Shown here piece after piece: positions 11,080-43,337 of a stretch of 64,000 nt of DNA. Positions within the stretch are counted from its first letter, which is position 1. Each line of letters opens with the position of its first letter. The DNA lies in contig NZ_OPYL01000003.1 in assembly GCF_900343125.1 (NCBI RefSeq), positions 1 through 64,000 on the forward strand, read 5' to 3'. The position numbers and the translations under genes are program-made. This DNA comes from Dysgonomonas sp. Marseille-P4361. Its GTDB lineage: Bacteria; Bacteroidota; Bacteroidia; Bacteroidales; Dysgonomonadaceae. The notes below the pieces were generated by a model. The model saw only the letters and a program-made list of their open reading frames with translations. It was not told the origin of the DNA and searched no databases.

Positions 11080-11113
11080 TTTGAGCTAATATTATTAATT
11101 AGTATTAACTTTG
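11080..11113 (+). promoter_or_regulatory. Promoter of the rightward cobalamin operon
   Basis: TTTG at 11080-11083 and TAACTTTG at 11106-11113 (TAnnTTTG) are separated by 22 bp. The aptamer of the B12 riboswitch starts a few bases downstream, so transcription begins immediately before it. Confidence 0.7.
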
Positions 11114-11118
11114 CGCCG

Positions 11119-14356: not shown

Positions 14357-14357
14357 A

Positions 14358-18967: not shown

Positions 18968-18969
18968 AT

Positions 18970-28092: not shown

Positions 28093-29220
28093 TTATTTCA
28101 ATAATTCATAGTAAACTGAGGTGTGATCCGATAATAAGTTGGGATGGAAAATCTTTATAAGATCGGCCAAGACTACTTCTGGTTCTACGGGAGTATTTTC
28201 ATAAAAGGGTTTTTCACGTAGATTACAGTAGATTACTTTCTTTTCTTTGTAAGCTTTGAAATCTGTATAGCGAGCATCAGTCTGTTTAAGTACATCATAG
28301 TTATATTCACCATTATAGCTATTTACAATTCGCCAATAATTGGCGTCGGCTCCTTGTGAGTAAACAGTTTCGTAGTCTACATAAAATCCGCCTGACTCAT
28401 TATCATTCTGCATAAAATAGTTAGCTCCTGCATCTTTAAAAAGCTGGGCTAAATAGCTTTTTCCTCCTACTACATACCAATTCCCCGAATGTAATTCGCC
28501 ACTCAGTACAGTAGGCTTGTTTGCTATATCTTTTGTTAATGCTTGTAATTCAATGTATCTTTTTTCTATTTCTTCGAATTGTTTTTCAGCTTGCTTTTCC
28601 ATTCCAAGGAGCATTGCTGTAAACTTTATCCATTCGGCTTGCCCTAATGGCGTCGTTTCTTTGTAACCAAGAAAGCTAACTAGAGGAATATCCAAGTTCC
28701 GAATAGCATCATATCCTCCTTTTTTGAAAGGCGAAACAAGAATCAGATCAGGATTAAGAGCCATGACTATTTCGCTATCAAACTCACCCTCGATACCAAT
28801 CTTTCGAGTCTTGCCATCTTTGATCTGTTGATTGATTTGTTTGTTCGACAGAAAACGTGTACTTGTTATACCAACAACTTTATCCAATGCATTTAATTTA
28901 ATAAAATTAGATAATTGTAGGTTTGTCATACAGATAACACTTTTTACAGGAGCTTCTATGATTGTATAATCCGACGGTATACCTTCTTTCGAACTACCTC
29001 TTTTTAATAAGGCGTATTTGTACGTAATATCACTTTCTTTGCTCGGATCGGTTATGTCGATCAATCTAAAATTACCGTGATCGGATACTTGAAATCCTTT
29101 GGCATATTTAACTTCAAACAGATTTCCATTATTTTCTATTTTTTCTCCAGTTCCTTTTTTGTTTGGATTACATGAAATTAATAGAGTAATACCTAAGAAT
29201 AGAATAATATAGTATTTCAT
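28093..29220 (-). CDS. btuF: BtuF-like substrate-binding lipoprotein
   Basis: This 375-residue protein has a lipoprotein signal ending at C17 (L-L-I-S-C). The periplasmic-binding fold of the helical-backbone type follows: D-K-V-V-G-I-T-S, then N-P-D-L-I-L-V-S-P-F and V-L-S-G-E-L-H-S-G-N-W. Such proteins hand corrinoids or ferric siderophores to BtuCD-type importers. Position immediately before btuC in a B12-riboswitch operon supports corrinoids. Its start overlaps the cbiL stop (ATGA type). Confidence 0.85.
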   Translation of the reverse strand: MKYYIILFLGITLLISCNPNKKGTGEKIENNGNLFEVKYAKGFQVSDHGNFRLIDITDPSKESDITYKYALLKRGSSKEGIPSDYTIIEAPVKSVICMTNLQLSNFIKLNALDKVVGITSTRFLSNKQINQQIKDGKTRKIGIEGEFDSEIVMALNPDLILVSPFKKGGYDAIRNLDIPLVSFLGYKETTPLGQAEWIKFTAMLLGMEKQAEKQFEEIEKRYIELQALTKDIANKPTVLSGELHSGNWYVVGGKSYLAQLFKDAGANYFMQNDNESGGFYVDYETVYSQGADANYWRIVNSYNGEYNYDVLKQTDARYTDFKAYKEKKVIYCNLREKPFYENTPVEPEVVLADLIKIFHPNLLSDHTSVYYELLK

Positions 29221-29936
29221 ATAGAAAATTTATTTTGAATGATTAGTAACGAGAAATAAGGAAACTTCTTACTTATAATTGTTTTTTTATCAGTTGTGTA
29301 GTACTCTTTTCCTATAATACCAACATTCTCAAAATAGTGATGGTCAATATTGTTTTTCGAATAGATGAGCTCTTTAATTACACTTTCGCTTAATGAAGGT
29401 TTCATTATAATAATGGATTTACCGGAATTCAAATAGGAGATTAATTCATTTGAATCTGTTTTTCCTGGAATAACAACCAGTTGTTCTTCTTGTTTTGCTA
29501 TATGGATATTTGCAAGAGCAGCACAAGATATAAACGCAGGAATACCTCCAATCCGTTGTGTAGGAATACCAATTTTCATCAATTCCTCATTGATATACTG
29601 ACTTGATGAATAGAATCCAGAATCGCCTTCAGCTACAATAGCGACTTTTAAACCTTCTGAATAATATTTTGCAGCTAGTATAGCTACTGCTTCATAGTAT
29701 CTTAATGCATTTGTTCGATCTTTACTCATCGGAACATGAAAAAGCTCTATTTTATTTTCATCAATATGTAATTCAGTTAAAATACTCTTCGAGCGAGATA
29801 CTACTTCATTTCCAATTCTATTCGTAGAAGGAGTTAAGATTACATCTGCATCTTGCAATTTTTTTAGTCCTTTTAAAGTTATTAATTCAGGATCTCCAGA
29901 TCCCAAGGACACGAACGATATTCTGTTTATATTCAT
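29217..29936 (-). CDS. cbiL/cobI: Precorrin-2 C20-methyltransferase
   Basis: This 239-residue tetrapyrrole methyltransferase has V-S-L-G-S-G-D-P-E-L-I-T-L-K at the N-terminus, V-A-E-G-D-S-G-F-Y-S-S in the middle and G-G-I-P-A-F-I-S-C-A-A. It methylates C20 of (cobalt-)precorrin-2, the first committed corrin step. It sits inside the transport operon between the DUF4374 lipoprotein and btuF, so biosynthesis and uptake are co-regulated. It completes the methylation set with cobJ, cobM, cbiET and cbiD. Confidence 0.9.
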   Translation of the reverse strand: MNINRISFVSLGSGDPELITLKGLKKLQDADVILTPSTNRIGNEVVSRSKSILTELHIDENKIELFHVPMSKDRTNALRYYEAVAILAAKYYSEGLKVAIVAEGDSGFYSSSQYINEELMKIGIPTQRIGGIPAFISCAALANIHIAKQEEQLVVIPGKTDSNELISYLNSGKSIIIMKPSLSESVIKELIYSKNNIDHHYFENVGIIGKEYYTTDKKTIISKKFPYFSLLIIQNKFSI

Positions 29937-30011: not shown

Positions 30012-31271
30012 TTAGTTTTCTATCATAACCAATCGTTGGAAATAGAATCCATCTTGGATTGTTAGACCTTTTTTCAGATTCCCTGTTTTTATGTCATATA
30101 TATATATAGCTTGCTTCTCTTTTTCAGGATTAACTCCAATATATACTTTATCCTTGAGTACGATTGTCCGCTGAGAAATTGTTCCTTCACTGTAAGGTAA
30201 ATCTAGCTCAGTCAGATTATCAGTTTTCAAATCTAGCACAGCATAGTAACAATTATAATTCGCTCCCCATCCAGGTGCACCTGTGTGTGTTGGGTCTTGA
30301 ATATAGAGGAGAACTTTGTCAGAAGAAAGGTTGTCAATCGTAATTATTTTTCCACGAGAATAATCCTTCCCTTGAAACCCTAAATACGATTTGTCAAAAT
30401 CTTTACTGCCTCGGTTAATACGAAGAATAGAGCCATACTGTTGAGTGCTATATTCATTATCACTACCCTTTAATCTGCTTGCACATACCAAATAATAGTT
30501 GCCATTAGAATCGAAAAAAGATTTTGACATAGCCATTTCTCCATATGCAGTAGCCCCCATTTGTTCGGCACGATCCTCTGTTATCACTGTTTCTACTGAC
30601 ATATCATCAGCGTTAACAAATGCTGCATAAAAATGAGTTTTATCGTTGTTATTACAGTAAGTATAAATGATCTTATTATCTTCTTTACGATAAGCAGCGA
30701 TTCCAGATGTACTAAATTTTCCACCTTCAGCTAAAGCCGGCAAATTAAGTTCACCTTCACTTAGAATGACCATCCTTTCAGTATCTACTTTAATCCAAAT
30801 AACTTTACTAGCATCCCCGTTAGCTGCCATTAGAGCCAATACTTTATCATTTATCCATGCATGGGCAAACCTTCTGTCCTTTAAAGTGTTTTTTTCAAAA
30901 GGAATTTCGGCTATCACTTCTATTCCCTTAGCTGTGATTTTATATTTACCAAAACGATCTTTTTCTTGTGGAACTTGATAATAATATTGTCCCTTAATAA
31001 TATTTTCCATAAATAGTTTAGCCGTAACATCAACGCCTTCTCCTTTAAAAGATATTTCGTCTTCGTTCTCTATAGATTCTACACTTTGTACAACTCGAGC
31101 TACATGACCTCCTCCTCCATATGAGTCGGTTGTCATCCAAATATCGAAATGAGTTGTTGCTACAGGGGTTATTGGATCAATAGGATCAGTATCATCATCA
31201 GAACATGATATAAAAAAAGAACTGATGAATAGTAACACTAGAAAAGGAAAATAGAATTTCATTGTTTTCAT
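30012..31271 (-). CDS. DUF4374-type surface lipoprotein (XusB-like)
   Basis: This 419-residue protein has a lipoprotein signal ending at C23 (F-F-I-S-C-S) followed by an acidic D-D-D-T-D-P stretch. Acidic residues just after the lipidated cysteine are a known surface-export signal in Bacteroidetes. The body has repeating beta-strand segments consistent with a beta-propeller. The overall pattern, including W-M-T-T-D-S-Y-G near the N-terminus, fits DUF4374. The best-studied member is XusB of Bacteroides thetaiotaomicron, which binds ferric enterobactin with the receptor XusA. Here it follows its TonB receptor by 15 bp in a B12-riboswitch operon, so the ligand may be a corrinoid, cobalt chelate or other tetrapyrrole. 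Ligand unknown. Confidence 0.75.
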   Translation of the reverse strand: MKTMKFYFPFLVLLFISSFFISCSDDDTDPIDPITPVATTHFDIWMTTDSYGGGGHVARVVQSVESIENEDEISFKGEGVDVTAKLFMENIIKGQYYYQVPQEKDRFGKYKITAKGIEVIAEIPFEKNTLKDRRFAHAWINDKVLALMAANGDASKVIWIKVDTERMVILSEGELNLPALAEGGKFSTSGIAAYRKEDNKIIYTYCNNNDKTHFYAAFVNADDMSVETVITEDRAEQMGATAYGEMAMSKSFFDSNGNYYLVCASRLKGSDNEYSTQQYGSILRINRGSKDFDKSYLGFQGKDYSRGKIITIDNLSSDKVLLYIQDPTHTGAPGWGANYNCYYAVLDLKTDNLTELDLPYSEGTISQRTIVLKDKVYIGVNPEKEKQAIYIYDIKTGNLKKGLTIQDGFYFQRLVMIEN

Positions 31272-31286: not shown

Positions 31287-33680
31287 TTAATTAAAAAAGA
31301 ATCTCATTTTACAAAAGAATGCTCTTCCAGGCTTTTGGAGTTTCAGATTATCATAGGTCAGCCGATCGAAAATATTAGTACATTCTAGAGATATATTATA
31401 TTTTTCATTTTTTAATGAATATGTTAATGATAAATCACTTATGTTTTGTGTCGGTATTCTTGATTTAGCATCTCCTCCTCCAGCACTTTTCCAAGTATAA
31501 TAATACCAATGAACGTATTGGAAATAGTAGGCTAACTTGATCTGGTTATCTTTTGCCCCAAATAAGTTTTGTTTTTTCACATTTAACTCTACATTGCTAT
31601 ACAACCAAGGAGTATTAGGAATCTGATCGTTATAAGTAGCTGAAGGTTTACCATTTTCTAAGTACTTATTCTTATTTTTCTCCTCCAAGTATGTACAATT
31701 TACTATTGCTTGAAATAAACTGCTATAACTGTATCTTAGTTCTCCTTCTATTCCTTTAACTGTAGCATTATTTAGATTTTCATACTGTCCAAGCCTGTCT
31801 TCTACTGGGCTAGGTTTGTAGCGTATGTAATCCTTAACTGTTCGCATAAAACTTCCTACTTCATAATATAAATGATGTTTATTATTACAGTCAATTTCGC
31901 CAAACATGCCTATATTTACATTATTACTACTTTCAGGTTTCAATGTAAGGTTAGGGTATACTGTTGTTCCATTTCCAAGAAGTTCTCTTGCTATTGGTAA
32001 ACGAATCGCATGTTCATAAGATGCTTTTATGGCAAAATTGCTATTGAAACGATATCGTGATGCTATTCCATAACCAATGTTGTAATTAGTTGATGAGTTA
32101 GGTATATCTTTCGATCCTGTTATATGAGATAAATCTTGTTGTCCTATTCTCAAATTATTAATATAATCTTTTAAGAATAAAATATTTGTTAGCTTGTTGT
32201 CAAATAGATTAAGAGAGTATGATAAACCAAAAACATGCTTTGTTACAACATCATTAGATGGTTTAAAATCCATATCTATTTCATCATAACGTTTATTCCC
32301 TGTACGATCTAATGTGTAATTCAGATTAAAAGATTGATTGTTAGATAGTCTGTAGTTTATGCTTGCACGTCCAATTGTTGTAGGGCGTTTATAATGCTTT
32401 TTAGATTTTCCGCTCCTCATTATTTCATTCATCTTAGAATCTATTCTATTATCAAAGGAACCATCCCACCAATATTTCTGATATGCAGTATCAATAACAA
32501 TAGAGTGATCCCAAGTGTGAGAAACAAAAATATTAGTTGATAAATTCTTGATGAGTAAATCATTTTTTATGTAGTTCGCAGAAATACCAAACGATCTATT
32601 TTCTTTTTCAGCTTTACCATATACAATGTTTTGAATTGCTCCTGTTTGCAATTCCTTGTTTATAGCAGAATATGAAGTCGAAAAGAAAAATGAATCTGCC
32701 CACTTCTTATTTATAACACCTACTTCTAAATGTCCAATTAAAGAAAGGTAATCATCGTGAAAGCGTTTAGCGTCTGTTGTTTTAAATCTACTTCGCTCAA
32801 TTCCATCCTCATCAATAAATTTTTCTTTCACTTGTATATCCTTCATTTTATAATTATTCTTTGAATAATTGATCCCAAAAGAAGGACGTATTACTATTCC
32901 AGTTTTTCTTTCAGTATATTGAGCTCTAAAATCAGCTTTATGAGTGCTAAATGAACCAATGCCATAAGAAGTGTCTATGTAGTCTTTTATATTTATATTT
33001 GTTATTATATTTATAGCACCTCCTAATGCATCGGCTCCTAATTCAGATGGAACAAATCCCTTATATATTTCGATCCGATCAACAAGATTAATAGGCAGGT
33101 TGGATAAATTAACCTCAGAGCCCAAATATGCTAATGGAATTCCATTAACAAAGTACCTAATGGCATTTCCAGATAATCCATTGATAGATAGTTCAAAATC
33201 TGAACCAACTCCTCCTTTTTCTCTAACTCTTATACCTGAACTTCTTCCTACCATCGTATTCAAGTTATTAAGGTCATTAGTTCTCGACTTCACGGACAAG
33301 GCGTTGACCGAATAAGCACTTTCACGGAGTTGTTGATGTTTAGATTTACCCTTGACCTCTACGGTTGATAACTCATGTGTCTTTGGAGTTAATTCGAAGT
33401 TGCATTCCTTGTTGTTACTTATCTCAATATCAACTACTTTTGTTTCATAACCAAAACAAACAATTGTGACTGTATAAGATCCAGAGGCAATCTTACCATT
33501 AAAAGAGCCTTTATCATCAGTAACAGATAGTAAGTATTCGTCAACTATTATACTCGCCCCTGAAATAGGTTTGTTATTGATGTCAGAAACTTTGCCATGC
33601 AATACAATATTCCTATTCTGGGCATAGAATGATACATTTACTAATAAGTAAAATAAAATAATAAAGATTTTTTTCACCAT
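31287..33680 (-). CDS. TonB-dependent outer-membrane receptor with CarboxypepD_reg domain (XusA-like)
   Basis: This 797-residue protein has a signal peptide at residues 1-20. A carboxypeptidase-regulatory-like beta domain follows at about 25-105 (I-V-L-H-G-K-V-S-D, then V-T-I-V-C-F-G-Y-E). The plug begins near 115 and a 22-strand barrel ends in an aromatic residue pattern F-C-K-M-R-F-F-F-N. It is first in an operon with a DUF4374 lipoprotein, cbiL and btuFCD, and has a B12 riboswitch 175 nt upstream of the start. The combination receptor plus DUF4374 matches XusAB. Import of a corrinoid, a cobalt complex or a siderophore-like metallophore are all possible. Regulation favours cobalamin-related cargo. 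Confidence 0.85.
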   Translation of the reverse strand: MVKKIFIILFYLLVNVSFYAQNRNIVLHGKVSDINNKPISGASIIVDEYLLSVTDDKGSFNGKIASGSYTVTIVCFGYETKVVDIEISNNKECNFELTPKTHELSTVEVKGKSKHQQLRESAYSVNALSVKSRTNDLNNLNTMVGRSSGIRVREKGGVGSDFELSINGLSGNAIRYFVNGIPLAYLGSEVNLSNLPINLVDRIEIYKGFVPSELGADALGGAINIITNINIKDYIDTSYGIGSFSTHKADFRAQYTERKTGIVIRPSFGINYSKNNYKMKDIQVKEKFIDEDGIERSRFKTTDAKRFHDDYLSLIGHLEVGVINKKWADSFFFSTSYSAINKELQTGAIQNIVYGKAEKENRSFGISANYIKNDLLIKNLSTNIFVSHTWDHSIVIDTAYQKYWWDGSFDNRIDSKMNEIMRSGKSKKHYKRPTTIGRASINYRLSNNQSFNLNYTLDRTGNKRYDEIDMDFKPSNDVVTKHVFGLSYSLNLFDNKLTNILFLKDYINNLRIGQQDLSHITGSKDIPNSSTNYNIGYGIASRYRFNSNFAIKASYEHAIRLPIARELLGNGTTVYPNLTLKPESSNNVNIGMFGEIDCNNKHHLYYEVGSFMRTVKDYIRYKPSPVEDRLGQYENLNNATVKGIEGELRYSYSSLFQAIVNCTYLEEKNKNKYLENGKPSATYNDQIPNTPWLYSNVELNVKKQNLFGAKDNQIKLAYYFQYVHWYYYTWKSAGGGDAKSRIPTQNISDLSLTYSLKNEKYNISLECTNIFDRLTYDNLKLQKPGRAFFCKMRFFFN

Positions 33681-33854
33681 TGTTTTATTTAAAATACGAC
33701 TTGAAATCTTTTAAATAAAACTAACGTGTATTCGAAATAACCTTGGTTAAATACTTAGTGGCTGAATTGCATCAATAATATTGATTTCGCAAGAAATGGA
33801 TTGAATCCTAAAGTCTTGTTGTCAGCTCTATTCCACGAAAGCTTTATAACTAAT

Positions 33855-34028
33855 ATTCTGGCAGGTCTTCTGACTTACTCTATCTTTGAACGCCCTTCCC
33901 ATTCACAAGTGAACAGTGGTTTTGAGTATTGTTCAAAGACTTTGGCGGAGCTTACAGCAGCGGGTCTGTTCAGGACTTTCACCTGATTCCCTTTTCATCA
34001 CAATCTGTGAATACAGAATGTGACACCA
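33855..34028 (-). ncRNA. Cobalamin riboswitch 2
   Basis: On the minus strand the conserved blocks are present: GGGAATC, CAGACCCGCTGCTGTAAG (P5 with CCCGC in the loop), CACTGTTCAC...GGGAAGGGC, and the closing box AAGTCAGAAGACCTGCC near 33857. A hairpin (AGCT arms) follows after about 16 nt, but unlike riboswitches 1, 3 and 4 its loop has no CGGG-type complement to loop 5. It controls the operon from the TonB receptor to cobK-cbiD. Confidence 0.93.
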
Positions 34029-34038
34029 AAATCATATG

Positions 34039-34046
34039 CAAAGATA
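34039..34046 (-). promoter_or_regulatory. -7 box before riboswitch 2
   Basis: On the minus strand the sequence reads TATCTTTG (TAnnTTTG), 10 bp upstream of the aptamer. No convincing -33 TTTG at normal spacing is seen. The same TATCTTTG occurs before riboswitch 4. Confidence 0.55.
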
Positions 34047-34109: not shown

Positions 34110-34454
34110 TTACTCTGGCACATAAATAATTTCACCATTTTCCAGTTCATAAGCGATACCTACCTTGCGACCCTTTTGTTGAGATTTAGACTGATCCTGA
34201 GATGGGGTATATTTATTGATTTGTTTCCCTTCTTTTTGTATAATCTCCATATTATCTTTACCTGGATTTTTGACAATCGTAAAATCTTCTTCAGTGAATA
34301 CCTCAGCCATATTCATGTGCATAACCATAGATACCATTAGTGCTACAGCAAATACCATTGCAACATCAAACAAGTTAACAACAACCGATAAGGGGTCGTG
34401 ATCTTCTTCTTTTGCAAACTTGTTAACTCTTTTAGTTTTTTTTCTGAGTGGCAT
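34110..34454 (-). CDS. DUF2149 membrane protein (HmuV-like)
   Basis: The ATG at 34454 is chosen over an in-frame TTG at 34460. The protein of about 114 residues has one membrane helix near 27-47 after an acidic D-P-L-S-V-V-V-N-L-F-D motif, and a periplasmic tail ending V-G-I-A-Y-E-L-E-N-G-E-I-I-Y. The N-terminal D...NLFDVA segment resembles ExbD/TolR proteins, so it may be the second subunit of the proton channel encoded just upstream. It is the last gene of the six-gene operon. In the recalled hmu heme operon the gene in this place is hmuV. Confidence 0.75.
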   Translation of the reverse strand: MPLRKKTKRVNKFAKEEDHDPLSVVVNLFDVAMVFAVALMVSMVMHMNMAEVFTEEDFTIVKNPGKDNMEIIQKEGKQINKYTPSQDQSKSQQKGRKVGIAYELENGEIIYVPE

Positions 34455-34456
34455 AA

Positions 34457-35053
34457 TCAATTTTGCTTTTCGGTTAAGAGATTAGCCACAAAGTCTAGAT
34501 TATTCACATCTCTGGCATACCACCTTTGCTTGAATTGCTGTGTCAACAAACCAACAGCACTCACCACAAGACCGATAACCGTAGCTGCAAATACAACTTG
34601 CATATTATGAGCCATTCCGGCAATATCACCCGTAGACAGACCTACAAGCGCAGGACTCATGGCTATCAATGTCCCAATCAAACCAAGTACAGGTCCCATC
34701 TTAGCTAATATTTTAGACAAGGATAGGTCTTTATCAGCTTCGTTCTCGAAGTTGGAAATCAGGAAATCGGCATAAGCCTCACTGGGTTTGGTATTGAGTA
34801 ATTCTCGCAAGTATTTTATATATAAAGAGTTATCTTTTTCGGGTAATAGCTGATTGAGTTCACTTACTGATGTTGCAGTTGATTCTTTAATCTTATTATT
34901 CAGTATCTTGTCATTTTTTCGCTTTGTCATAAACTGATTATAGAAGCTACCCAATAGGATTAATGATCTGAAAAACAAACACAATAAAATAATGACATCG
35001 GGTATCAAGAGACTATTTGCAACCCAGAATAATGCTTTAAAAATTAATTCCAT
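34457..35053 (-). CDS. MotA/TolQ/ExbB-type proton channel (HmuU-like)
   Basis: This 198-residue membrane protein has an N-terminal helix near 12-38, and a conserved C-terminal pair of helices with L-A-K-M-G-P-V-L-G-L-I-G-T-L-I-A-M-S-P-A-L near 115-137 and V-V-F-A-A-T-V-I-G-L-V-V-S near 153. This is the ExbB/TolQ core. It should use the proton gradient to drive a periplasmic partner, here probably the membrane-anchored CobN-like protein rather than a generic TonB. It precedes the DUF2149 gene by 2 bp. Confidence 0.85.
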   Translation of the reverse strand: MELIFKALFWVANSLLIPDVIILLCLFFRSLILLGSFYNQFMTKRKNDKILNNKIKESTATSVSELNQLLPEKDNSLYIKYLRELLNTKPSEAYADFLISNFENEADKDLSLSKILAKMGPVLGLIGTLIAMSPALVGLSTGDIAGMAHNMQVVFAATVIGLVVSAVGLLTQQFKQRWYARDVNNLDFVANLLTEKQN

Positions 35054-35098
35054 TTTATACGTTTAATTATTTATTTGAATATTTTATCTCTAAATAGA

Positions 35099-35785
35099 TT
35101 ATTTATTTCTTTTTCTAAAAGTCCACTTCAGCTTATACCAGACATAGCCTATCAAAAATAGACCGATAAACAGACCTGAAGCAAAAGCAAAAGCTTTCCA
35201 GTTCATAGGTTCATCAGTTGCTGCATAAGTTACTTTGCCATCGGCCGTACATATCAGACCAATTACACAGATAAAGAGTGATACTAAAAAGTGGACTTCA
35301 AGTCTAAAATCTTTTTTCGGAAATAAATACTTTATTCCATACGACAACAGAGGTAATGACACAAGAATACCTACCGCCATTACATAGGAAATCAGATTAA
35401 AATCCATTCCGGGCGATGAGAATACAACCTGTGTTTGTAGGTAAAATAGTGCCGGAAAAACAAGAAGTCCAGGATAGTAAAAGAAAAAGACTCCCCAGGA
35501 TTTTACCTTCTTACCGAAAATCACTTTCAGAGCTATGAAACAATATCCTATACAGAGAGCTGACTCTAAAGTAACCAATACAGCAAGGTCTTGCATTACC
35601 TGATTGCTGCCCATCAATTCTACTAATTGAGTTTTAGACTGACTAGCCGTATATGGGCATATCCAAACTGTAAAAGCAGCACAGATGGCGGCAAATATAA
35701 TAGTTTGCCACCAGCGCCAAAAGCTCAATTTTAGGAGTGTATTTATAAAGATGAAAAGGAGTAGAACCTGAATTATAAGTATCAT
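35099..35785 (-). CDS. Polytopic membrane protein of the chelatase operon (HmuT-like)
   Basis: This 228-residue protein has about seven hydrophobic segments (for example 2-17, 25-42, 68-90, 98-118, 132-153, 167-185, 199-218) and a basic C-terminus. No catalytic motif is recognised. It lies between the CobN-like and ExbB-like genes, 6 bp from the former. In the recalled hmuRSTUV order the membrane protein HmuT occupies this position. Likely a structural part of the same membrane complex; the function is unknown. Confidence 0.65.
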   Translation of the reverse strand: MILIIQVLLLFIFINTLLKLSFWRWWQTIIFAAICAAFTVWICPYTASQSKTQLVELMGSNQVMQDLAVLVTLESALCIGYCFIALKVIFGKKVKSWGVFFFYYPGLLVFPALFYLQTQVVFSSPGMDFNLISYVMAVGILVSLPLLSYGIKYLFPKKDFRLEVHFLVSLFICVIGLICTADGKVTYAATDEPMNWKAFAFASGLFIGLFLIGYVWYKLKWTFRKRNK

Positions 35786-35791
35786 AACTAA

Positions 35792-38700
35792 CTATTTATC
35801 GCCTTTCCATTTTTTCTTCAAAACAATTATTAGAACTACAAATACAAGTAAGATTGCTCCAACTACAAACAGTCCATTCAAACCGTTGGATTCACTCACT
35901 TCCTTATCTACAGATGTAGTCTTTTTCAAAACCATACCATTGGCTTCTGATTTTGATGCCTCTAAAGCAGCACTCATACCTTTCATATACTCTACAGCTT
36001 GTTCTGAGGACAATTGATTCGTTACAAAACTCTGCAACTTAGGGTTATCACAAATAACCTCCGTACAGCCTGCACCATTCTTCTCTATACTTTCCACGTG
36101 GATAGATACAACCCTTTGCAATTGTTCTTTGGTTGGCTGCCAATAACCCTTACGGGCACTTTCGAGCATAACTGAAGTCATCGTTTGAAAAGCAGCTGAA
36201 TTTACATTATCAAAATAATCATGTATCCCCAACTGATGTTCATCTTGTATATACATCTTGTATAAGTCATTATAGAGTTCTTTATCCATAGATGAAGGCC
36301 GCATTACCTGCCAACCATAAATATTCCGGAATATTTTACCAAACATCTCTGCTGTAGTAGCATCGCCTTTCATTCGTTCTTCAACGAAGGTCGGATTTAG
36401 AATCGTTGCCCGAGTTTCTACTGCTATAGCTTCCTTTAGATTCTGTATTCGTTTATTATTCCTGTTTCGATAATCAGCCATCAAGGCATCAGGTTCTTTC
36501 CCTGTAATGTTTTTTACAGCCATGGACATGGCTCCTGTAAATTCGAATACATGGTCTAAAGATATTGGCCCCCACGTATTACTCTGTCGTGGTTGTATAA
36601 TAATATCCGTTTCGGTTAAAGCTGAGGCAAATAAATCTTTATGAAATGTGCCCCAATTATCATCATCACCGTAAATTGCTCCCATATTGTTCAAATAGCC
36701 ATTTACCAGCTCATTCTGATCATCCCAACTTCCGCTATTGTCAGTATATGCTATCATACCTGTGCTATAACCGCTATTAAGTGGTCCAAATACTCGCATT
36801 GTGGACATCTCGCGTGCCCTAACGGGAGGCATTCCTTTGTCGATCATTATTTTCTCCTGAAGAATGGTTCCCGATGATACGTAATTGGGATATTGTTCTT
36901 TGGTAGCTGCAGAGGCCAGTCGTACTGCATTTGTAATAAGTTTCAGTCTGGAACCCGCAATGTCACGTAATTGGCCTGAAACTTGGATGAGTACATTGAT
37001 TCTTGGACGTCCCAATTCTTGGGAAGGTATTAGCTTCAAGTCTACGATTCGTCCTTGATTGTCACGAACAGGCTCAACTCCAAGCATCCAAAGAGCTTGG
37101 GCTACGGTTGCCCCTTCTGAATTGATAAACTCACCGGCCCAAAATGTATAACTGACTTTACGAGGATATTCACCATGTTTTTCTTTGTACGTATCTAACG
37201 TAATTTCAGCCAAGCGTTTGCCTTCTTCCCATGATTTTTTTGTAGGAGTGGTTTCTACATTTATACTATACATATTACGTCCTGTAGGGAGTACATTCGG
37301 ATTTAGGATAGGGTCTCCTCCCGGTGCCGGGAATATACTCCCTCCGTTTAGACCTCGTGTCATTGACCTGAATTCATTTTCAGTCGATTGGGCCAATAAT
37401 TCTCGATATCTAATCGCATCCTTTAAATCTGGAGATATGGAATTTGTATCATTCGGAGTATTTCGTAATATATTCGTTATTTGTTTTTTTGCGGTAGATA
37501 GATAGCGATGATTTACAAATCCTAAATTCTGGAGTTGCTCAGTCGTTATTTTACCGGCATCTCTATCCCGCTTTGCCAGTTCATATGCAAGAGGGTCTGC
37601 ACTCACGGCAAGAGTTGTAGTCAACAAATCTCTCGGAGAATAAGGTTCTCCCATAGTATAGAATGCTCCTAGTGTCTTTTCATTTGCAATTTCTTCTATG
37701 AACATGTCCAACTTTTCGAGTTCTTGCTCAGTAAACGGTTCGTTGGATAATGAGTCTAATTCTAAATCACGATGTAATCCTAATTTTATTATTTCTTGTT
37801 TTGTTTGCAATGCCAAATGTTTATTCTTTTCGTTTCCTTCATGCAGTAGATGGTGAATATTATCCAAAATAGTACTATATCGTTGACGCATACCACTTTC
37901 TACATATGGAGGCGTAAGATGGGTTACAAGTACGGCATGAGTACGTCTCTTTGCAATAATTCCTTCACCGACATTACCTGTAGTATAAAAATAAAAATGA
38001 GGTAAATCTCCGACAAGGACATCCGCCCAATCATTTTTGGAAAGGGCTATATTTTTCCCGGGAGTAAATTCCAGACTACCATGTGTTCCGAAGTGGATTA
38101 ATGCATCTGCTTCAAAACCTTTCTGCATATAAAGGTAAGGAGCTAGATAACTATGAGGAGGAGCTACGGGCATTCCATGTACCAATTTAAAATCATCTTC
38201 TCCAAGAGCTGGACGAGGTTGAGGAAAAAGAATAACATTCCCGAATTGTAAACAAGCTATGGCTATTTCTTTATTGCCATTATCGTCATCTTTAACTAAC
38301 AATTCCCCTGGAGCTTCTCCGTATCGGGCTACCACTTCTCTATATTTTTCAGGGTTCAATACTTCCTGTACCCATTTCTCATATTCATTTTTAGTAAGCC
38401 AGACAGGTTTTGCATTCTTCAAGAAATTATCCTGGGCTCCTTTAGCATACGAGCCAAGAACCAAGCCATCAGTATTGATCCGCCTTTTAAACTCATCTAA
38501 AGATGTAGGCAATCCTTTTAAATCATAGCCTTCGGAACGAAGATGCTTCAAAAAATTATACAGAGATGGTATTACTTCCATTCCGCTGGCCAGCAAAGCA
38601 TCCTTCCCATGTGAACGAAAATAACATATCGCTACTTTTTTATCTTTGTTTGGCAGGTTGGCTAGTCCTAAATATTTTTTCAGATGTTGAATAAAATTAT

Positions 38701-39727
38701 TCATCCGCTCTTCTTCCACTGTATAGAAGTAATAACCATTCTCATGAGTATTCTGAGTAGCTATAGCTAAGGGCATCATTGCCCCATCTATCTCGGGAAT
38801 TAGTACACGTCCATTCAATACACCTCCACTAACAGGAATCATAGGATTGAGCCATTCTTCTGTAGATTGGATTAATGGATAAGGACAGAAAAGAGGAATA
38901 TTCTCAGTATTCAACCAATCAATAAAATCATCATCGCCAAGACGCCCCATAGGGTAATAGATGACGGCATCCGGATGTAGATCTTTTATCATTTCAGATC
39001 TATGTTGAGGACTTGCAATCGGGAATACATTAAAACCCTCACGAGTCAGGCGTAATATTAGTGTATCGACATGTGCTCGATTGCCTTCCATTGGGAATCT
39101 GGCACCTGCAATAAAAGCTATATTTTTACCTTTATCATTATATATTCCTTTATGCTTCAGATAGTCTATTAAACCTTCCTTAGTATTGAAGTATTCTCCA
39201 TATTCTCGATGATAAAAATGATTGTCGGGCAATATTATAGGCTCATCATAGCTTTCTTGAAAAAAACGCTTCGGATTTGCAACCTGACGTATATAACATA
39301 ATCCGTTCCGATAATTCTTCAGATTAGGATTATTGAAATAGCTTAATAGTCTACTTTGTTGTTTTCTTGTAAGGTTATAATTTAATCCAGAGAAAGCTGC
39401 ATTCGAAGATATTGTTAGTATTGGAATTCCATCCTCTGCTACCTTTTCCAGTGCGGCAATATGTTCTTCAGACAAATGTAAGCCTCTTCCAAACAGAATA
39501 ACTGCATCATATCCTTCAAAACGAGCAACTTCTTCCGTTGACATACATGTAATCTTTATATAACGACTATCGTTATTGAGGGTAATATCAGCCGCCTGAG
39601 CTTCAGGAATGTTTACAAAAAGAATTTGGGTCGGAGCAAACCAGTATTTATAACTAAAGAAAAAAATTGTTAGGAGGATAATTCCTCCTAACAAAGATTT
39701 AATAAAAATGAATCGTTTCATTATCAA
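35792..39727 (-). CDS. Membrane-anchored CobN/ChlH-like chelatase (HmuS-like)
   Basis: This 1311-residue protein has the CobN/magnesium-chelatase subunit H family body: A-L-I-H-F-G-T-H-G-S-L-E-F near 543, and the tract from N-G-G-S-I-F-P-A-P-G-G near 787 onward. It carries an N-terminal membrane helix at about 10-30 and a C-terminal helix at about 1280-1302 followed by K-K-K-W-K. Both anchors imply that the catalytic body is outside the cytoplasm. Aerobic CobN works with cytoplasmic CobS and CobT AAA proteins, which are absent here. The ExbB-like neighbour suggests a proton-driven alternative. HmuS of Bacteroidetes, a close architectural match, has been described as removing iron from heme anaerobically. 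Here B12 riboswitches and a CbiK neighbour point to cobalt insertion or removal. Direction of the reaction is not known. Confidence 0.85.
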   Translation of the reverse strand: MIMKRFIFIKSLLGGIILLTIFFFSYKYWFAPTQILFVNIPEAQAADITLNNDSRYIKITCMSTEEVARFEGYDAVILFGRGLHLSEEHIAALEKVAEDGIPILTISSNAAFSGLNYNLTRKQQSRLLSYFNNPNLKNYRNGLCYIRQVANPKRFFQESYDEPIILPDNHFYHREYGEYFNTKEGLIDYLKHKGIYNDKGKNIAFIAGARFPMEGNRAHVDTLILRLTREGFNVFPIASPQHRSEMIKDLHPDAVIYYPMGRLGDDDFIDWLNTENIPLFCPYPLIQSTEEWLNPMIPVSGGVLNGRVLIPEIDGAMMPLAIATQNTHENGYYFYTVEEERMNNFIQHLKKYLGLANLPNKDKKVAICYFRSHGKDALLASGMEVIPSLYNFLKHLRSEGYDLKGLPTSLDEFKRRINTDGLVLGSYAKGAQDNFLKNAKPVWLTKNEYEKWVQEVLNPEKYREVVARYGEAPGELLVKDDDNGNKEIAIACLQFGNVILFPQPRPALGEDDFKLVHGMPVAPPHSYLAPYLYMQKGFEADALIHFGTHGSLEFTPGKNIALSKNDWADVLVGDLPHFYFYTTGNVGEGIIAKRRTHAVLVTHLTPPYVESGMRQRYSTILDNIHHLLHEGNEKNKHLALQTKQEIIKLGLHRDLELDSLSNEPFTEQELEKLDMFIEEIANEKTLGAFYTMGEPYSPRDLLTTTLAVSADPLAYELAKRDRDAGKITTEQLQNLGFVNHRYLSTAKKQITNILRNTPNDTNSISPDLKDAIRYRELLAQSTENEFRSMTRGLNGGSIFPAPGGDPILNPNVLPTGRNMYSINVETTPTKKSWEEGKRLAEITLDTYKEKHGEYPRKVSYTFWAGEFINSEGATVAQALWMLGVEPVRDNQGRIVDLKLIPSQELGRPRINVLIQVSGQLRDIAGSRLKLITNAVRLASAATKEQYPNYVSSGTILQEKIMIDKGMPPVRAREMSTMRVFGPLNSGYSTGMIAYTDNSGSWDDQNELVNGYLNNMGAIYGDDDNWGTFHKDLFASALTETDIIIQPRQSNTWGPISLDHVFEFTGAMSMAVKNITGKEPDALMADYRNRNNKRIQNLKEAIAVETRATILNPTFVEERMKGDATTAEMFGKIFRNIYGWQVMRPSSMDKELYNDLYKMYIQDEHQLGIHDYFDNVNSAAFQTMTSVMLESARKGYWQPTKEQLQRVVSIHVESIEKNGAGCTEVICDNPKLQSFVTNQLSSEQAVEYMKGMSAALEASKSEANGMVLKKTTSVDKEVSESNGLNGLFVVGAILLVFVVLIIVLKKKWKGDK

Positions 39728-39733
39728 TAAGTC

Positions 39734-40654
39734 TTAATGAGCAGCAGCACCTGCTGCATAATTTTTCTTTTTGTCAACTATATCTATCATCTTATGATGT
39801 ATAAGGAAGCGAATTTTATCAACAAACATATCTTGGATATTTGTATTTTCACCCAAGCCTTTCATATCTACATCGGTTTTGAAGTCTTCTATCTCCAATG
39901 AGTCTTTCCATTCGCCTGCAATATCGTTATTGGCATGATCTCCAGCTACAAACATAAAAGGAACAAGAGTTACTTGTTTTGCTTTATTGACTTTCAATTG
40001 TTTTACGACCTCACAAAACGAAGGGTATCCCTCTACTGTGCCTACATGAAAATTATTAGCTCCTTTATCTTTAAACATATAATCAAGCATAGCATAACTA
40101 GCTGTACTTGGAGTATATGTGCCATGACCAACCAATACTATCTCTCCTTTAGATGGACATTCTTTTTTCAGTATATCCACAACCTTTTCAAAATCTGAAA
40201 CATGATATAGTAATGGTGTACCGATTCGGACTTCTTTGAAAAACGGTTCGACTGAAGCTACATCTTTACGTAGTGCTTCCATCTCCACACCATCAATAAT
40301 ATTCGAACTTTGAATCAGGATATGAGTATAACCTTCTGCTTTTAGTTTTAAAAGTGCATCTATGGGATTGTGTTTTTCAATACCACGTTCTTTAAGTCTA
40401 CGAATAACGATTCTTGCAGTGTACGCCTCTCTTACCTCTAATTCAGTAAATGTTTTTTTTACTTTATCATTAATTACATCAATTGTTAGAGCACGAGTGT
40501 CATCATAAGTCGTCCCAAAATGGACCATTAGTATAGCTGCTTTATCGCCATCTTTCATATTTTCCAGTATGTTGGAGGCTATAAAGTTTCCACCTTCGTG
40601 TGCTTGACATGTAATGGACATGATAGTCATAATTATAAATAATAACTTTTTCAT
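39734..40654 (-). CDS. cbiK: Exported CbiK-type sirohydrochlorin cobaltochelatase
   Basis: This 306-residue protein has a signal peptide in residues 1-18 (cleavage near C-Q-A-H). The CbiK domains follow: L-M-V-H-F-G-T-T-Y-D-D near 46, L-V-G-H-G-T-Y-T-P near 178 and F-H-V-G-T-V-E-G-Y-P-S near 200, containing the two metal-binding histidines. CbiK inserts cobalt into sirohydrochlorin. An exported version is known from Desulfovibrio vulgaris (CbiK-P), which can also carry heme and act on iron. The C-terminal tail is basic and Ala/His-rich. It lies 6 bp upstream of the CobN-like gene, so two chelatase-type proteins are made together outside the cytoplasm. Confidence 0.88.
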   Translation of the reverse strand: MKKLLFIIMTIMSITCQAHEGGNFIASNILENMKDGDKAAILMVHFGTTYDDTRALTIDVINDKVKKTFTELEVREAYTARIVIRRLKERGIEKHNPIDALLKLKAEGYTHILIQSSNIIDGVEMEALRKDVASVEPFFKEVRIGTPLLYHVSDFEKVVDILKKECPSKGEIVLVGHGTYTPSTASYAMLDYMFKDKGANNFHVGTVEGYPSFCEVVKQLKVNKAKQVTLVPFMFVAGDHANNDIAGEWKDSLEIEDFKTDVDMKGLGENTNIQDMFVDKIRFLIHHKMIDIVDKKKNYAAGAAAH

Positions 40655-40662
40655 ACAACTAT

Positions 40663-42741
40663 TTATTTGAATTGAAGATTTAAACTAACAAAGACTGTCC
40701 TACCAGGCGATAATAATCCATAATTTACTCCGTAAGGGCGAGAGTCTACTTTATCAAGAATATTATTAATACCAATGCCAGGCTCTAGTATAAAATGTTT
40801 AAAATGAGAGAAAGTATGCTTACTATATATATTCCATACTCCGTATCCGGGAGCATCTCCATAAGTGTCATTCGGATGAAGTCTCTTGCTTTGTAATCTT
40901 GTGTTCAAATTCACATTTAAACGATATTTTCCCCACTCATTGAGATAATTTGTAGCTATAGTTGCTGTATGTCTGACAGATCTTTCAATAGCACCCCATT
41001 CTCCATCTTTATCTTTACCTTGGGCTGAAGCATATGCATAATTTGCATCAATCCTGAAACCATATCCTAAATATGCGGAAGATCTTATATTAAATCCTTT
41101 AACTTGTCCTTTCTGAAGGTTCTGATATTCTTTGTAATTAGCCAATTTACTTACCTGCTGAGGTGTCATATTAAAATCTTTTTGAACCTTATCTTTTATT
41201 GCCTGTGCTTGATCTACTGGCATATCCGAAAATTTGGTTGTTTTGGATGAAATCATATCATCTACATAGTTTAGATATCCTGTTATAGAAAATGAAAATC
41301 TACTTGTGCTATATTCTGCATTTAAAGAATAGTAATTACTTTTTTCCGGTTTTAGATTTTCATCTCCAATAGTAATCGTTGATCCCATAGAACTTCTCCA
41401 TAAATAATAGTACAATTCGTCTAATCCAGGTGCTCTATAACCTGCCGAATAAGTTCCTCTGAAATTGAAATTATTGACAGAGTACATCAGAGCTATTTTT
41501 GGAGTTATTCGCCCCTTTGCCGTTTCATGATAATCGTAGCGCAAGCCTGCAATACCCGTGAAATGATTCCACAATTTTATTTCATGCTGTCCATATATTG
41601 ATGTCGTATATACAGATTTGTCAACATTTGCACTTGGGCGATCTAGACTTTCAGATCGATAATCTACACCAAATACAGAGGTACTGTTTTCTGTAAACTT
41701 GAATATACTTTTCAGTTCTGCATTATAGAACTTTTGTTTTTTAGTCTTATCGTAATCTCCGACCTTGAAATCTTTATCATCCCTGATATATTTATAATTC
41801 TGATTGTAATTATCATTAATCAAGTCTAATGTAATTGTAGCTTTTTTATTAGGCTTAAACCGTCCACCTAATCCGTATTTGAAAGATTCATAATGAATAT
41901 CGTAGGTAAATCCACCATCAATATCATCTTGTACACCTGGACGATCTGTCAGCTTCCAATAATACCCGCCATCAGCATAAAAAGATAACTTATCTGACGG
42001 GGTATATGTGAATCTTTGATTAATTATATTGGAATGAAATCCGTTTGAAGATTGACTAAGAGTTGGTATTGTAGTCAATGTACCATCTTTTGCCTTTTTA
42101 TAACTATCTTTACTTTGTTGCCAACCACTTGACTGGTCGTGCTTAAATGAAGTGTAAGATCCAATTTTACTGTTCGATAAGTCAAGGTTCACTGATTGTG
42201 TGAACATTCCGTATTCTTCATACTTAGTATTGCTTGATGCTTGTATTATATTTTTAGGCTCATCTGTAATAATATTAATGACTCCCGCAATAGCATCAGA
42301 ACCATATAAGGAAGAAGCTGCACCATCAAGTATCTCAATTCGTTTTACACGATTTAAATCGATTCTGGATAAATCAATATTATTGGTTATATCTCCCGTA
42401 AGTTTTCTCCCATTAATCAAGATAAGTACATATTTATTTGATAAACCATTCATCATCAAATATGTTCCCATTGCACCTCCTCCTGAGAAGGACAGTGATG
42501 GAACTAGTACAGTCATAGCTTGTTGAAAATCTGTTATGCCAGTTTTTTTAATGTCAAATCCAGTGATAACTTCTACGGGTGCAGGAGTATTTTTTAGTCT
42601 CTGGTGAGTACCCGTACCCGTTACAACAACTTGATCTAAATTTACCGATTTTTCATTTTCAGAATTATTTGCATGTTGAGCAAAAGAATTAAGGGTCATA
42701 CAACTACCCAATAGAAAAGCGAAAACAAATTTCTTTTTCAT
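40663..42741 (-). CDS. btuB: BtuB/HmuR-like TonB-dependent receptor
   Basis: This 692-residue outer-membrane receptor has a signal peptide (residues 1-21, ending S-F-A-Q), a TonB-box region near 34-41 (D-Q-V-V-V-T-G-T), a plug (residues about 48-160, with N-G-R-K-L and D-A-I-A-G-V-I-N-I) and a barrel ending L-N-L-Q-F-K. It is first in an operon under two tandem B12 riboswitches with chelatase genes. BtuB is the natural reading, but HmuR-type heme receptors are close relatives and the operon order matches hmuRSTUV. Substrate may be a corrinoid or a metalloporphyrin. The start lies 26 nt after the riboswitch hairpin. Confidence 0.85.
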   Translation of the reverse strand: MKKKFVFAFLLGSCMTLNSFAQHANNSENEKSVNLDQVVVTGTGTHQRLKNTPAPVEVITGFDIKKTGITDFQQAMTVLVPSLSFSGGGAMGTYLMMNGLSNKYVLILINGRKLTGDITNNIDLSRIDLNRVKRIEILDGAASSLYGSDAIAGVINIITDEPKNIIQASSNTKYEEYGMFTQSVNLDLSNSKIGSYTSFKHDQSSGWQQSKDSYKKAKDGTLTTIPTLSQSSNGFHSNIINQRFTYTPSDKLSFYADGGYYWKLTDRPGVQDDIDGGFTYDIHYESFKYGLGGRFKPNKKATITLDLINDNYNQNYKYIRDDKDFKVGDYDKTKKQKFYNAELKSIFKFTENSTSVFGVDYRSESLDRPSANVDKSVYTTSIYGQHEIKLWNHFTGIAGLRYDYHETAKGRITPKIALMYSVNNFNFRGTYSAGYRAPGLDELYYYLWRSSMGSTITIGDENLKPEKSNYYSLNAEYSTSRFSFSITGYLNYVDDMISSKTTKFSDMPVDQAQAIKDKVQKDFNMTPQQVSKLANYKEYQNLQKGQVKGFNIRSSAYLGYGFRIDANYAYASAQGKDKDGEWGAIERSVRHTATIATNYLNEWGKYRLNVNLNTRLQSKRLHPNDTYGDAPGYGVWNIYSKHTFSHFKHFILEPGIGINNILDKVDSRPYGVNYGLLSPGRTVFVSLNLQFK

Positions 42742-42767: not shown

Positions 42768-42967
42768 ACACTCTGTCCCCGGAGTGTTTCGATTTATTTT
42801 AATATGGCAGGTTTCCTGGCTTACTCTATTCTAGAATACCTTCCCATTCCCAAAAGAACAGTGGTGATTATTATCTAGAACTTTTTAGAGTCTACAGTAG
42901 CGGGCACTGCTTCGGACTTAGACCGAATTCCCTTTTATGGAATTAAGCGAAGGCTTATCCATCACCA
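42768..42967 (-). ncRNA. Cobalamin riboswitch 3 with P13 hairpin
   Basis: On the minus strand the blocks are GGGAATTC, GCAGTGCCCGCTACTGTAG (P5, loop GCCCGCT), CACTGTTCTT...GGGAAGG, and the closing GCCAGGAAACCTGCC near 42806. After about 18 nt a perfect 6-bp hairpin (ACACTC / GAGTGT, 42768-42787) shows the loop CGGGGACA, complementary (CGGG) to loop 5 (CCCG). The btuB-like ATG is 26 nt further on. It lies about 180 bp downstream of riboswitch 4 on the same transcript. Confidence 0.93.
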
Positions 42968-43115
42968 ATATTTTATTTTACTAACATATTTCCCCTCGAT
43001 AAAATACGATCAAGGAGTAGCAAAGCTCTTAATGAACTTCGTAACTAAAGATTAAATATGAAACAGATAATTTGATTCCTGAAACAGGAAATGAATGATT
43101 TGTTTTGACATATCA

Positions 43116-43312
43116 ACTTTTACGCGAAGTATTGTCATCCATATACAGGCAGGTTTCCTGGCTTACACCATTTTCTATTTCCCTTCCCATTCTTTCGAGT
43201 TAGAACAGTGGTAATAAATAGAAAACTTCGCGGTGATTACAGTTGCGCGACAGCTCACGATTTAGACGTGATTCCCTATTATCTCTTAATTAGAGCACCT
43301 TAACGGCTTGAA
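43116..43312 (-). ncRNA. Cobalamin riboswitch 4 (upstream member of a tandem)
   Basis: On the minus strand GGGAATCACG, GAGCTGTCGCGCAACTGTAATC (P5, loop with CGCGC instead of CCCGC), CACTGTTCTA...GGGAAGGG and GCCAGGAAACCTGCC (near 43149) are all present. About 17 nt later the hairpin ACTT / AAGT (43116-43130) has the loop CGCGTAA, whose CGCG matches the altered loop 5. Compared with riboswitches 1 and 3 both partners changed in a compensating way. No long ORF lies between this and riboswitch 3; only short frames of 19-28 codons occur. Confidence 0.92.
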
Positions 43313-43337
43313 AAAATATAAAGAACTTTTACAGGCA

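Follow-up and report, generated by a model that had tools for sequence, protein, structure and literature searches.

How does a bacterium obtain the ring of vitamin B12 when it carries the genes that complete a corrin and none recognised for making the precursor? The question has stood for some 25 years for organisms whose corrin pathway lacks precorrin-2 synthesis, such as Porphyromonas gingivalis, whose pathway is said to be the "enigma" of a 2000 paper. It is raised here by a stretch of 64,000 nucleotides from Dysgonomonas sp. Marseille-P4361 (contig NZ_OPYL01000003.1, positions 1 to 64,000; hereafter the window), which holds a six-gene operon led by two B12 riboswitches and including a CobN-like protein of the BtuS type and a chelatase of the CbiK family. 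We offer a gene-by-gene answer together with a prediction of the compartment: the operon would serve an extracytoplasmic supply of the ring, from which a bacterium unable to make it builds B12, a reading to which we give even odds (about 0.5). More tentatively, part of B12 biosynthesis may itself be extracytoplasmic, with a proton-driven de-chelatase taking iron from scavenged siroheme and an exported CbiK adding cobalt, and many Bacteroidales with corrin genes may be periplasmic metal-swapping ring scavengers. The observations behind this, read from the sequences, are the clade and residues of the BtuS-type protein, the gene sets, the riboswitches, the missing early genes, and the CbiK leader. 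The operon and its adjoining riboswitches are as follows.

43130..43317, minus strand: cobalamin riboswitch, the distal member of the tandem pair that precedes the operon (RF00174, 89.7 bits, E 7.5e-21)
42789..42984, minus strand: cobalamin riboswitch, the proximal one, directly 5' of the receptor gene (RF00174, 92.6 bits, E 1.1e-21)
40663..42741, minus strand: TonB-dependent receptor TBDR1, candidate tetrapyrrole receptor (PF00593, PF07715)
39734..40654, minus strand: CbiK-family cobaltochelatase with export leader (PF06180, 259 bits, cut-off 26.2)
35792..39727, minus strand: BtuS-type CobN-like protein, candidate metallo-tetrapyrrole de-chelatase (PF02514, 911 bits)
35099..35785, minus strand: polytopic membrane protein of 228 amino acids in the HmuT position (no Pfam match)
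34457..35053, minus strand: ExbB/TolQ/MotA-type proton-channel subunit (PF01618, 42.3 bits)
34110..34460, minus strand: DUF2149 protein with a single membrane helix and an Asp near the helix start, possibly ExbD-like (PF09919, 117.9 bits)
33843..34045, minus strand: cobalamin riboswitch of the next operon, just beyond the end of the six-gene operon (RF00174, 106.7 bits, E 1e-25)

The six genes are all on the minus strand, exactly within 34110-42741, with intergenic gaps of 8, 6, 6, 45, and -4 bases; because they nearly touch and share a strand, they very probably form one transcript. Pfam matches and open reading frame coordinates bore out the families that an earlier note on this DNA had assigned to them, and its two upstream riboswitches and its secreted CbiK were likewise recovered, the latter as an export-type leader before the PF06180 match. 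The note had also held that the gene order equals that of the heme operon hmuRSTUV. The receptor, chelatase, polytopic protein, ExbB, and DUF2149 do follow one another as in the HmuS loci of our set, but cbiK is inserted and hmuY is missing, which makes "equals" slightly strong. For the BtuS-type gene, translation more likely starts at the ATG two codons past the listed TTG, and the protein has a hydrophobic segment at either end (6-24 and 1285-1303). TBDR1 reached no NCBIfam cut-off, its top scores being those of the TonB-hemin and TonB-B12 models.

Searches of the window genome (3.30 Mb, completeness 99.76%) gave no match for HemB, HemC, SUMT, or precorrin-2 dehydrogenase; HemA, HemL, and HemD were not searched for. 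This is the strongest fact of the case, and it lay beyond the view of the earlier note. The corrin pathway itself is encoded in the window and is of the anaerobic kind that the earlier note had described (CbiD, CbiG, CbiJ, CbiH-C, and CbiE-T, with CbiL just under its cut-off):

29217..29936, minus strand: CbiL, C20-methyltransferase (best family TIGR01467, 152.0 bits, cut-off 163.25)
28093..29220, minus strand: BtuF-like component of an ABC importer (PF01497)
27061..28092, minus strand: BtuC-like component of the same importer (PF01032)
26060..27061, minus strand: BtuD-like component of the same importer (recognised by eye)
24243..26063, minus strand: CbiJ-CbiD fusion (PF02571, PF01888; TIGR00312 over cut-off)
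12947..20790, plus strand: CbiH-CbiC, CbiP, CobD, CbiB, CbiE-CbiT, and CbiG-CbiF (Pfam/NCBIfam; CbiP by NCBIfam only, CobD and CbiB by eye)
9112..10989, minus strand: CbiA (9688-10989, NF002204 over cut-off) and a PduO-type adenosyltransferase (9112-9681, PF01923, 183 bits)

Since the four early functions are unmatched and CbiD, CbiL, and later steps are present, an imported ring is expected to join the pathway downstream of SUMT and at CbiL at the latest, that is, as precorrin-2, sirohydrochlorin, or its metal form. The CbiL end of this bracket rests on best match and context, because CbiL falls just below its cut-off. Sirohydrochlorin or its metal form seems likelier because the dehydrogenase is also unmatched. 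Uroporphyrinogen III was rejected as the imported precursor, SUMT being missing as well.

The BtuS-type protein is the sole CobN-like match in the window genome, and its best PDB match by sequence is Bacteroides thetaiotaomicron HmuS (9d26, 1207 bits; ChlH 360, CobN 293). It was placed in a tree of 81 CobN-like rows, built by a quick method with outgroups on long branches and omitting L031-L034, which take the same places as L078, L079, L070, and L081, as well as L035, L095, L104, and L115, which are fragments or split genes. HmuS 9d26 fell within a 29-row HmuS clade (support 100), and the window protein fell in a separate 43-row clade (support 100, branch 0.66), here named BtuS-B after the usage of BtuS in PMC6460266. 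A third group (group A), consisting of four Dysgonomonadaceae proteins, joins BtuS-B with a support of only 83, and the HmuS-type row L036 sits at an unresolved fork of the tree. The nearest relatives of the window protein are two proteins from Mediterranea metagenome-assembled genomes (MAGs), with identities of about 70%.

Comparison of residues, with HmuS numbering and roles according to the available text of PMC12583661, revealed that the sites of heme contact differ between the clades. In HmuS, Met79 and His254 are the heme ligands and Ser1014 is a predicted propionate holder (PMC12583661, available text). Position 79 is Arg in 43/43 BtuS-B, Pro in 4/4 group A, and Met in 30/30 HmuS sequences; position 254 is Met in 42/43 BtuS-B and 4/4 group A sequences and His in 30/30 HmuS sequences; and position 1014 is Ala in 43/43 and 4/4, respectively, and Ser in 29/29 HmuS sequences. 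The window protein carries Arg81 and Met260 at the two heme-ligand sites. The methionine-rich insert spans 0-19 residues in BtuS-B, 58-129 in group A, and 68-159 in the 29 HmuS rows. His538, His1209, and Glu1212 are unchanged in BtuS-B (43/43), group A, and HmuS, and in the four outgroup rows position 1209 is Asp and position 1212 is Gln or Asp. In place of the HmuS motif LSLDHxxEFMGG the window protein reads ISLDHVFEFTGA; within BtuS-B, Thr replaces Met of this motif in 42/43 sequences, with the catalytic His and Glu kept. Altogether, 41 columns split BtuS-B from HmuS at 93% on either side, and new Arg residues appear in BtuS-B at HmuS positions 79, 300, and 494, which could suit a ring with eight carboxylates.

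The separate clade, the lost heme ligands, the missing insert, and the altered motif rule out membership of HmuS. A true CobN was rejected as well, TIGR02257 reaching 425 of the required 822 and the models PRK05989 and PRK12321 also staying under cut-off. To judge by its residues, the window protein lacks the published HmuS-defining features and keeps the site of HmuS chemistry; metal removal would suit it better than cobalt insertion, because the HmuS-type de-chelatase site is retained. Among the conditions that the earlier note set for its refutation was a grouping inside characterised HmuS; the protein groups outside it, with differing diagnostic residues. The note's proposal that the complex inserts or removes cobalt holds in part: removal of a metal fits the BtuS-type site, but insertion is more probably the task of the exported CbiK.

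Riboswitches and neighbouring genes were then compared among the loci. All four riboswitches of the window pass the gathering score of Rfam RF00174, and a covariance model built on nine riboswitches was run over 81 loci, the window itself and L036 being left out of the counts. A same-strand riboswitch lies at most 7 kb upstream in 33/42 BtuS-B, 4/4 group A, and 0/28 HmuS loci; where 6 kb or more of upstream sequence is available, the counts are 31/37, 4/4, and 0/23. Five of the nine BtuS-B misses have short upstream sequence (L045, L046, and L059), a riboswitch 7.7 kb away (L049), or a truncated riboswitch match at the start of the available stretch (L064). The cbiK gene occurs in 37/42 BtuS-B loci versus 0/28 HmuS loci, and CbiH-C in 17/42 versus 0/28. 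ExbB is present in 33/42 and DUF2149 in 32/42 BtuS-B loci.

The early tetrapyrrole genes were followed in 68 genomes, consisting of 37 with a BtuS-B protein (including G146, assigned by identity and not by the tree), 4 with a group A protein, 21 with HmuS only, and 6 without a CobN-like protein; the genome of L040 stood outside these searches. The presence tables come partly from MAGs of unknown completeness, and related genomes are not independent. HemB, HemC, and SUMT exceeded their cut-offs only in G094, G107, and G127, and precorrin-2 dehydrogenase only in the same three among the 48 genomes searched for it. CbiD is present in 34/37 BtuS-B, 4/4 group A, 9/21 HmuS-only, and 2/6 of the other genomes, and it is present without HemB in 33/37, 4/4, 8/21, and 2/6. 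The named control Bacteroides ihuae matched CbiD and CbiK, with no match for HemB, HemC, or the dehydrogenase.

Analysis of CbiK bears on the compartment in which the ring would receive cobalt. The gene at 39734-40654 is the sole PF06180 match detected in the window genome, and its product has an export-type leader at the N-terminus. His177 and His240 are kept in 40/40 close and 6/6 divergent relatives and in the structures 1qgo, 2xvx, and 9b86; we take these two residues to be the catalytic pair. The masked L043 copy was omitted from the alignment, and the six divergent rows, that of L047 included, were treated apart. Leaders were scored by hydrophobicity (11-residue mean, mostly at least 2.0) and not by a dedicated predictor. 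By this measure, CbiK-type genes beside BtuS-B genes encode a leader in 44/45 cases, the remaining one being masked.

An independent sample, 295 genomes from the order, was also searched, with CbiD over cut-off in 24 and HemB in 53. Among the 13 genomes with CbiD and without HemB, 12 have CbiK, all 18 full-length CbiK copies carry a leader of the soluble or lipoprotein type, and no cytoplasmic type was seen. Among the 11 genomes with both CbiD and HemB, a leaderless chelatase type is clear in 8, being CbiX-like in G160, G204, G222, G266, G310, and G382 and CbiK in G226 and G274; G339 is a ninth case if its start is the inner ATG, and the count is given as 8 or 9 because this start is ambiguous. 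The Fisher p value is 4.2e-5 with nine and about 2e-4 with eight (by hand), both uncorrected for kinship. The tendency is that ring-making genomes mostly load cobalt inside, and genomes that do not make the ring have the enzyme outside.

These results suggest the following sequence of events, in which we infer the substrate, the direction of each metal step, the role of the motor, and the import of the product. At low B12 the riboswitches would open, and TBDR1 would import a tetrapyrrole at the level of sirohydrochlorin, most likely in the iron form, siroheme. The membrane-anchored BtuS-type protein would strip the metal from the ring in the periplasm. The ExbB/DUF2149 proton motor may drive this step, replacing the AAA+ ATPase needed by CobN and ChlH, because ATP is unavailable outside the cytoplasm. 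The exported CbiK would put cobalt into the ring. Cobalt-sirohydrochlorin would then reach CbiL through the BtuFCD-like importer, whose genes share a riboswitch-led group with cbiL, and the anaerobic corrin pathway would finish the molecule. The core idea of the earlier note, an hmu-like, membrane-anchored extracytoplasmic chelatase under B12 control that perhaps prepares corrin precursors from scavenged tetrapyrroles, is supported by these comparisons.

Several observations weigh against this reading of the operon. Siroheme is the likeliest metal form but only a candidate substrate, and its supply in the habitat is presumed. The window CbiK scored 204.6 of the 400 bits set for the NCBIfam equivalog NF047852, and Met at position 79 of the CobN-like alignment also occurs in 2/4 outgroup rows. 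The BtuS-B loci L044, L047, L065, and L071 gave no riboswitch despite more than 9 kb of upstream sequence, and Rfam found none in the last three either. Ten of the 68 genomes have CbiD and no HemB without a protein of BtuS-B or group A (8 HmuS-only, 2 with no CobN-like protein). BtuS is thus not needed for the route, and CbiK is the more constant part, because 9 of these 10 genomes have it. The Dysgonomonadaceae loci L148-L151 are riboswitch-led TBDR-CbiK or CbiK clusters without an adjoining BtuS. Conversely, G107 (locus L044) has BtuS with HemB, HemC, and SUMT and no match for CbiK or CbiD, and in G110 and G126 BtuS is present with CbiD unmatched. In the independent sample, G172 and G432 have HemB and yielded only leader-bearing CbiK copies; G222, G310, and G382 carry leader-type CbiK alongside the cytoplasmic CbiX type; G386 has a CbiK-type fragment of 103 amino acids, to which no type was assigned; and G242 (L193) has corrin and BtuFCD-like genes with no HemB and no CbiK match, which reflects either an assembly gap or a different route for cobalt into the ring. 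The CbiX types were detected through cross-hits of the CbiK model and not by a search of their own. Finally, a BtuS1-type protein may act on heme, because a btuS1 btuS2 double mutant of Bacteroides fragilis is impaired on heme iron, although a btuS1 single mutant is not (PMC6460266, available text).

The genomes and clusters that dispense with BtuS would fit a route in which the scavenged ring is apo-sirohydrochlorin or precorrin-2 and CbiK acts on it unaided, BtuS being an accessory proof-reading de-chelatase for wrong metals (Fe, Zn, Ni). We regard this account as unlikely, for it leaves unexplained why the BtuS unit has its own receptor, motor genes in 32-33/42 loci, and cbiK nearby in 37/42. 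The B. fragilis phenotype on heme iron (PMC6460266, available text) points elsewhere, to BtuS as an HmuS-like heme de-chelatase placed under B12 control as a source of iron or protoporphyrin, with which its top PDB similarity to HmuS and the retained His/His/Glu of the active site agree. However, both heme ligands and Ser1014 are replaced across the clade, none of the 28 HmuS loci shows the riboswitch or cbiK association, and disruption of cbiK in B. fragilis had no effect on heme-iron use (unpublished data cited in PMC6460266, available text), which makes a heme function quite unlikely.

It is improbable that BtuS is the periplasmic cobalt inserter, with the ExbB/DUF2149 motor standing in for CobST and CbiK reduced to a ring- or metal-binding chaperone: His and Glu at 1209 and 1212 are of the HmuS type and not the Asp and Gln/Asp of the outgroups, the NCBIfam cut-offs for CobN are missed, and CbiK keeps both conserved His residues in 46/46 sequences. 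In favour of this account are the membership of BtuS in the CobN superfamily, its B12 regulation, and the naming of the CbiK-type FetB as heme-binding in PDB 9b86. A unit that takes cobalt out of imported corrinoids or cobalt porphyrins for use by CbiK could draw on the Xus-like receptor and lipoprotein and the PepSY protein described below, which are under cobalamin riboswitches and could import metal chelates. We consider it very improbable, since cobalt by itself would be of no use to a genome that lacks HemB, HemC, and SUMT, intact corrinoids are directly usable, and removal of cobalt from a corrin is chemically very hard.

Comparison with known systems defines what is new in the proposed ring supply. 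The window operon shares with HmuS and the hmu operon (PMC12583661, available text) the protein superfamily, the hydrophobic ends, the polytopic/ExbB/DUF2149 trio, and His538, His1209, and Glu1212; it differs in the separate clade, the replaced Met79, His254, and Ser1014, the short insert, the B12 riboswitch, the inserted cbiK, and the absence of hmuY. BtuS was predicted as a third CobN-related type for metalloporphyrin salvage (Rodionov 2003, as cited in the available text of PMC6460266), and B. fragilis BtuS1 is a CobN-like protein encoded near cbiK in a second, non-hmu operon (PMC6460266, available text). The window protein shows the features of this family, being CobN-like, encoded near cbiK, under a cobalamin riboswitch, and not HmuS. 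Unlike it, BtuS1 has been studied for heme iron only, as far as the available text of PMC6460266 goes, and its sequence lies outside our tree; its nearby cbiK suggests that it probably belongs to BtuS-B. In addition, hmu-like operons preceded by a cobalamin riboswitch, with a suggested role in cobalamin, were noted in the available text of PMC10100974. The word "undescribed" in the earlier note was therefore too strong, given the naming of BtuS, the mutation of B. fragilis BtuS1, and these riboswitch-led operons. What is already in print is the hmu-like riboswitch operon; a metal-swap role for B12 was not found there. The open literature yielded no proposal of a periplasmic metal swap for B12 and no description of a sirohydrochlorin uptake system or of siroheme salvage; subscription papers lay mostly outside the search, which leaves novelty unproven.

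On the side of the pathway, tetrapyrrole precursor salvagers, mostly Firmicutes, were defined by Shelton 2018 (PMC6461909, available text), which also records P. gingivalis as lacking the steps to precorrin-2. Like these salvagers, the window genome has corrin genes and no HemB, HemC, or SUMT match; unlike our reading, the available text of PMC6461909 was not seen to propose uptake or metal-handling machinery for them. A precorrin-2 salvager class was also predicted, at 0.6% (Shelton 2018, as cited in the available text of PMC8123684), and Bacteroides cellulosilyticus is tabled among variants of the B12 pathway whose scoring begins at CbiK/CbiX (PMC8123684, available text). If the proposed ring supply is correct, gut Bacteroidales credited with B12 synthesis by their corrin genes alone would rely on neighbours for the ring, and the HmuS/CobN/ChlH superfamily would gain a further chemistry, with a proton motor suggested in place of the ATPase motor.

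CbiKP and FetB/IhtB are extracytoplasmic proteins. The window CbiK belongs to the same family as CbiK/CbiKP (1qgo, 2xvx) and FetB (9b86) and shares both conserved His residues with them, but differs in its link to BtuS and to the loss of the early pathway, and in the clade-specific His45 and Lys94. These two residues occur in 40/40 close relatives, are absent from the corresponding positions of 1qgo, 2xvx, and 9b86, and possibly contact cobalt or the ring. IhtB is called an outer membrane protein in the available text of PMC6460266. A further CbiK-like family, divergent at 26-30% identity and bearing lipoprotein-type leaders, occurs near a TonB receptor in L043, L046, L048, L049, L064, and L149 (4201-5283), with a cobalamin riboswitch just 5' of the receptor in L048 and L149; this family is perhaps FetB/IhtB-like.

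Analysis of the motor genes indicated a composite origin for the operon. Asp32 of the DUF2149 protein, which we take to resemble ExbD/TolR, is kept in 67/67 aligned rows, those of Planctomycetota and Pseudomonadota included. The polytopic protein occurs in both hmu and BtuS operons and has about seven hydrophobic segments; its AlphaFold2 model (predicted local distance difference test score [pLDDT] of 85.9) gave no match to PDB folds at E<=0.001. For receptor, CbiK, and BtuS alike, the nearest counterparts of the window genes are in the Mediterranea modules L037 and L038 (65, 62, and 70% identity in L037); no motor genes could be recognised there after BtuS. In a joined tree of the polytopic, ExbB, and DUF2149 proteins, the partners of the window trio (support 95/86) are one trio of the A type and two of the hmu type from Dysgonomonas; the trios of its nearest BtuS relatives lie elsewhere. 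By these placements the operon appears to be a mosaic, in which a receptor-CbiK-BtuS module was joined to a Dysgonomonas hmu-type motor, and its hmu-like gene order would be owed in part to this. The motor seems exchangeable between heme and B12 versions.

Outside Bacteroidota, a TonB receptor, ExbB, DUF2149, and a CobN-like protein occur together in L105 (Planctomycetota), L114 (Rhodoferax), and L116 (Propionivibrio). L105 and L116, unlike L114, have two cobalamin riboswitches upstream each. B12 control may be older and heme use derived. In the HmuS-type locus L099, a cobalamin riboswitch (2249-2457) lies on the opposite strand, about 7.5 kb from the chelatase gene.

Besides the six-gene operon, the window encodes a set of Xus-like uptake proteins:

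31287..33680, minus strand: XusA-like TonB-dependent receptor TBDR2 (9gbc_A, 390.6 bits over 1-796)
30012..31271, minus strand: XusB-like lipoprotein with a beta-propeller model (AlphaFold2 pLDDT 84.5)
11105..11302, plus strand: cobalamin riboswitch of the PepSY/cbi operon (RF00174, 91.7 bits, E 1.9e-21)
11466..12965, plus strand: PepSY membrane protein, XusC-like by family, candidate periplasmic metal reductase (PF03929, 50 bits)

PDB entry 9GBC is the XusAB complex. Sequence searches with the lipoprotein found nothing in Pfam or the PDB, and a PDB fold search with its model returned XusB at ranks 1-7 (best E 9.2e-17). TBDR2, the lipoprotein, CbiL, the BtuFCD-like importer, and CbiJ-CbiD form a second riboswitch-led group, and the PepSY/cbi gene group also holds nucleotide-loop genes, recognised by eye. 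An XusA-like receptor with a lipoprotein occurs in 32/42 BtuS-B loci. The window has counterparts of all three components of XusABC, namely the XusA-like receptor, the XusB-like propeller lipoprotein, and the PepSY protein, XusC being a PepSY inner-membrane reductase (PMC13142918, available text). Unlike XusABC as described there, the window set lies behind cobalamin riboswitches, with cbi genes interspersed, and its PepSY gene is 17 kb away. The set may import cobalt chelates, or it may reduce the metal before its removal.

The region at the riboswitch end of the operon (43966-50809) holds two transposase-type genes and a methylase/helicase protein of 1715 amino acids, of a mobile-element kind, and these genes are in keeping with a transferred module. 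Elsewhere in the window, 1919-3172 encodes a HipA-type protein and 7942-8658 a DUF6577 protein with an AbiEi-like domain.

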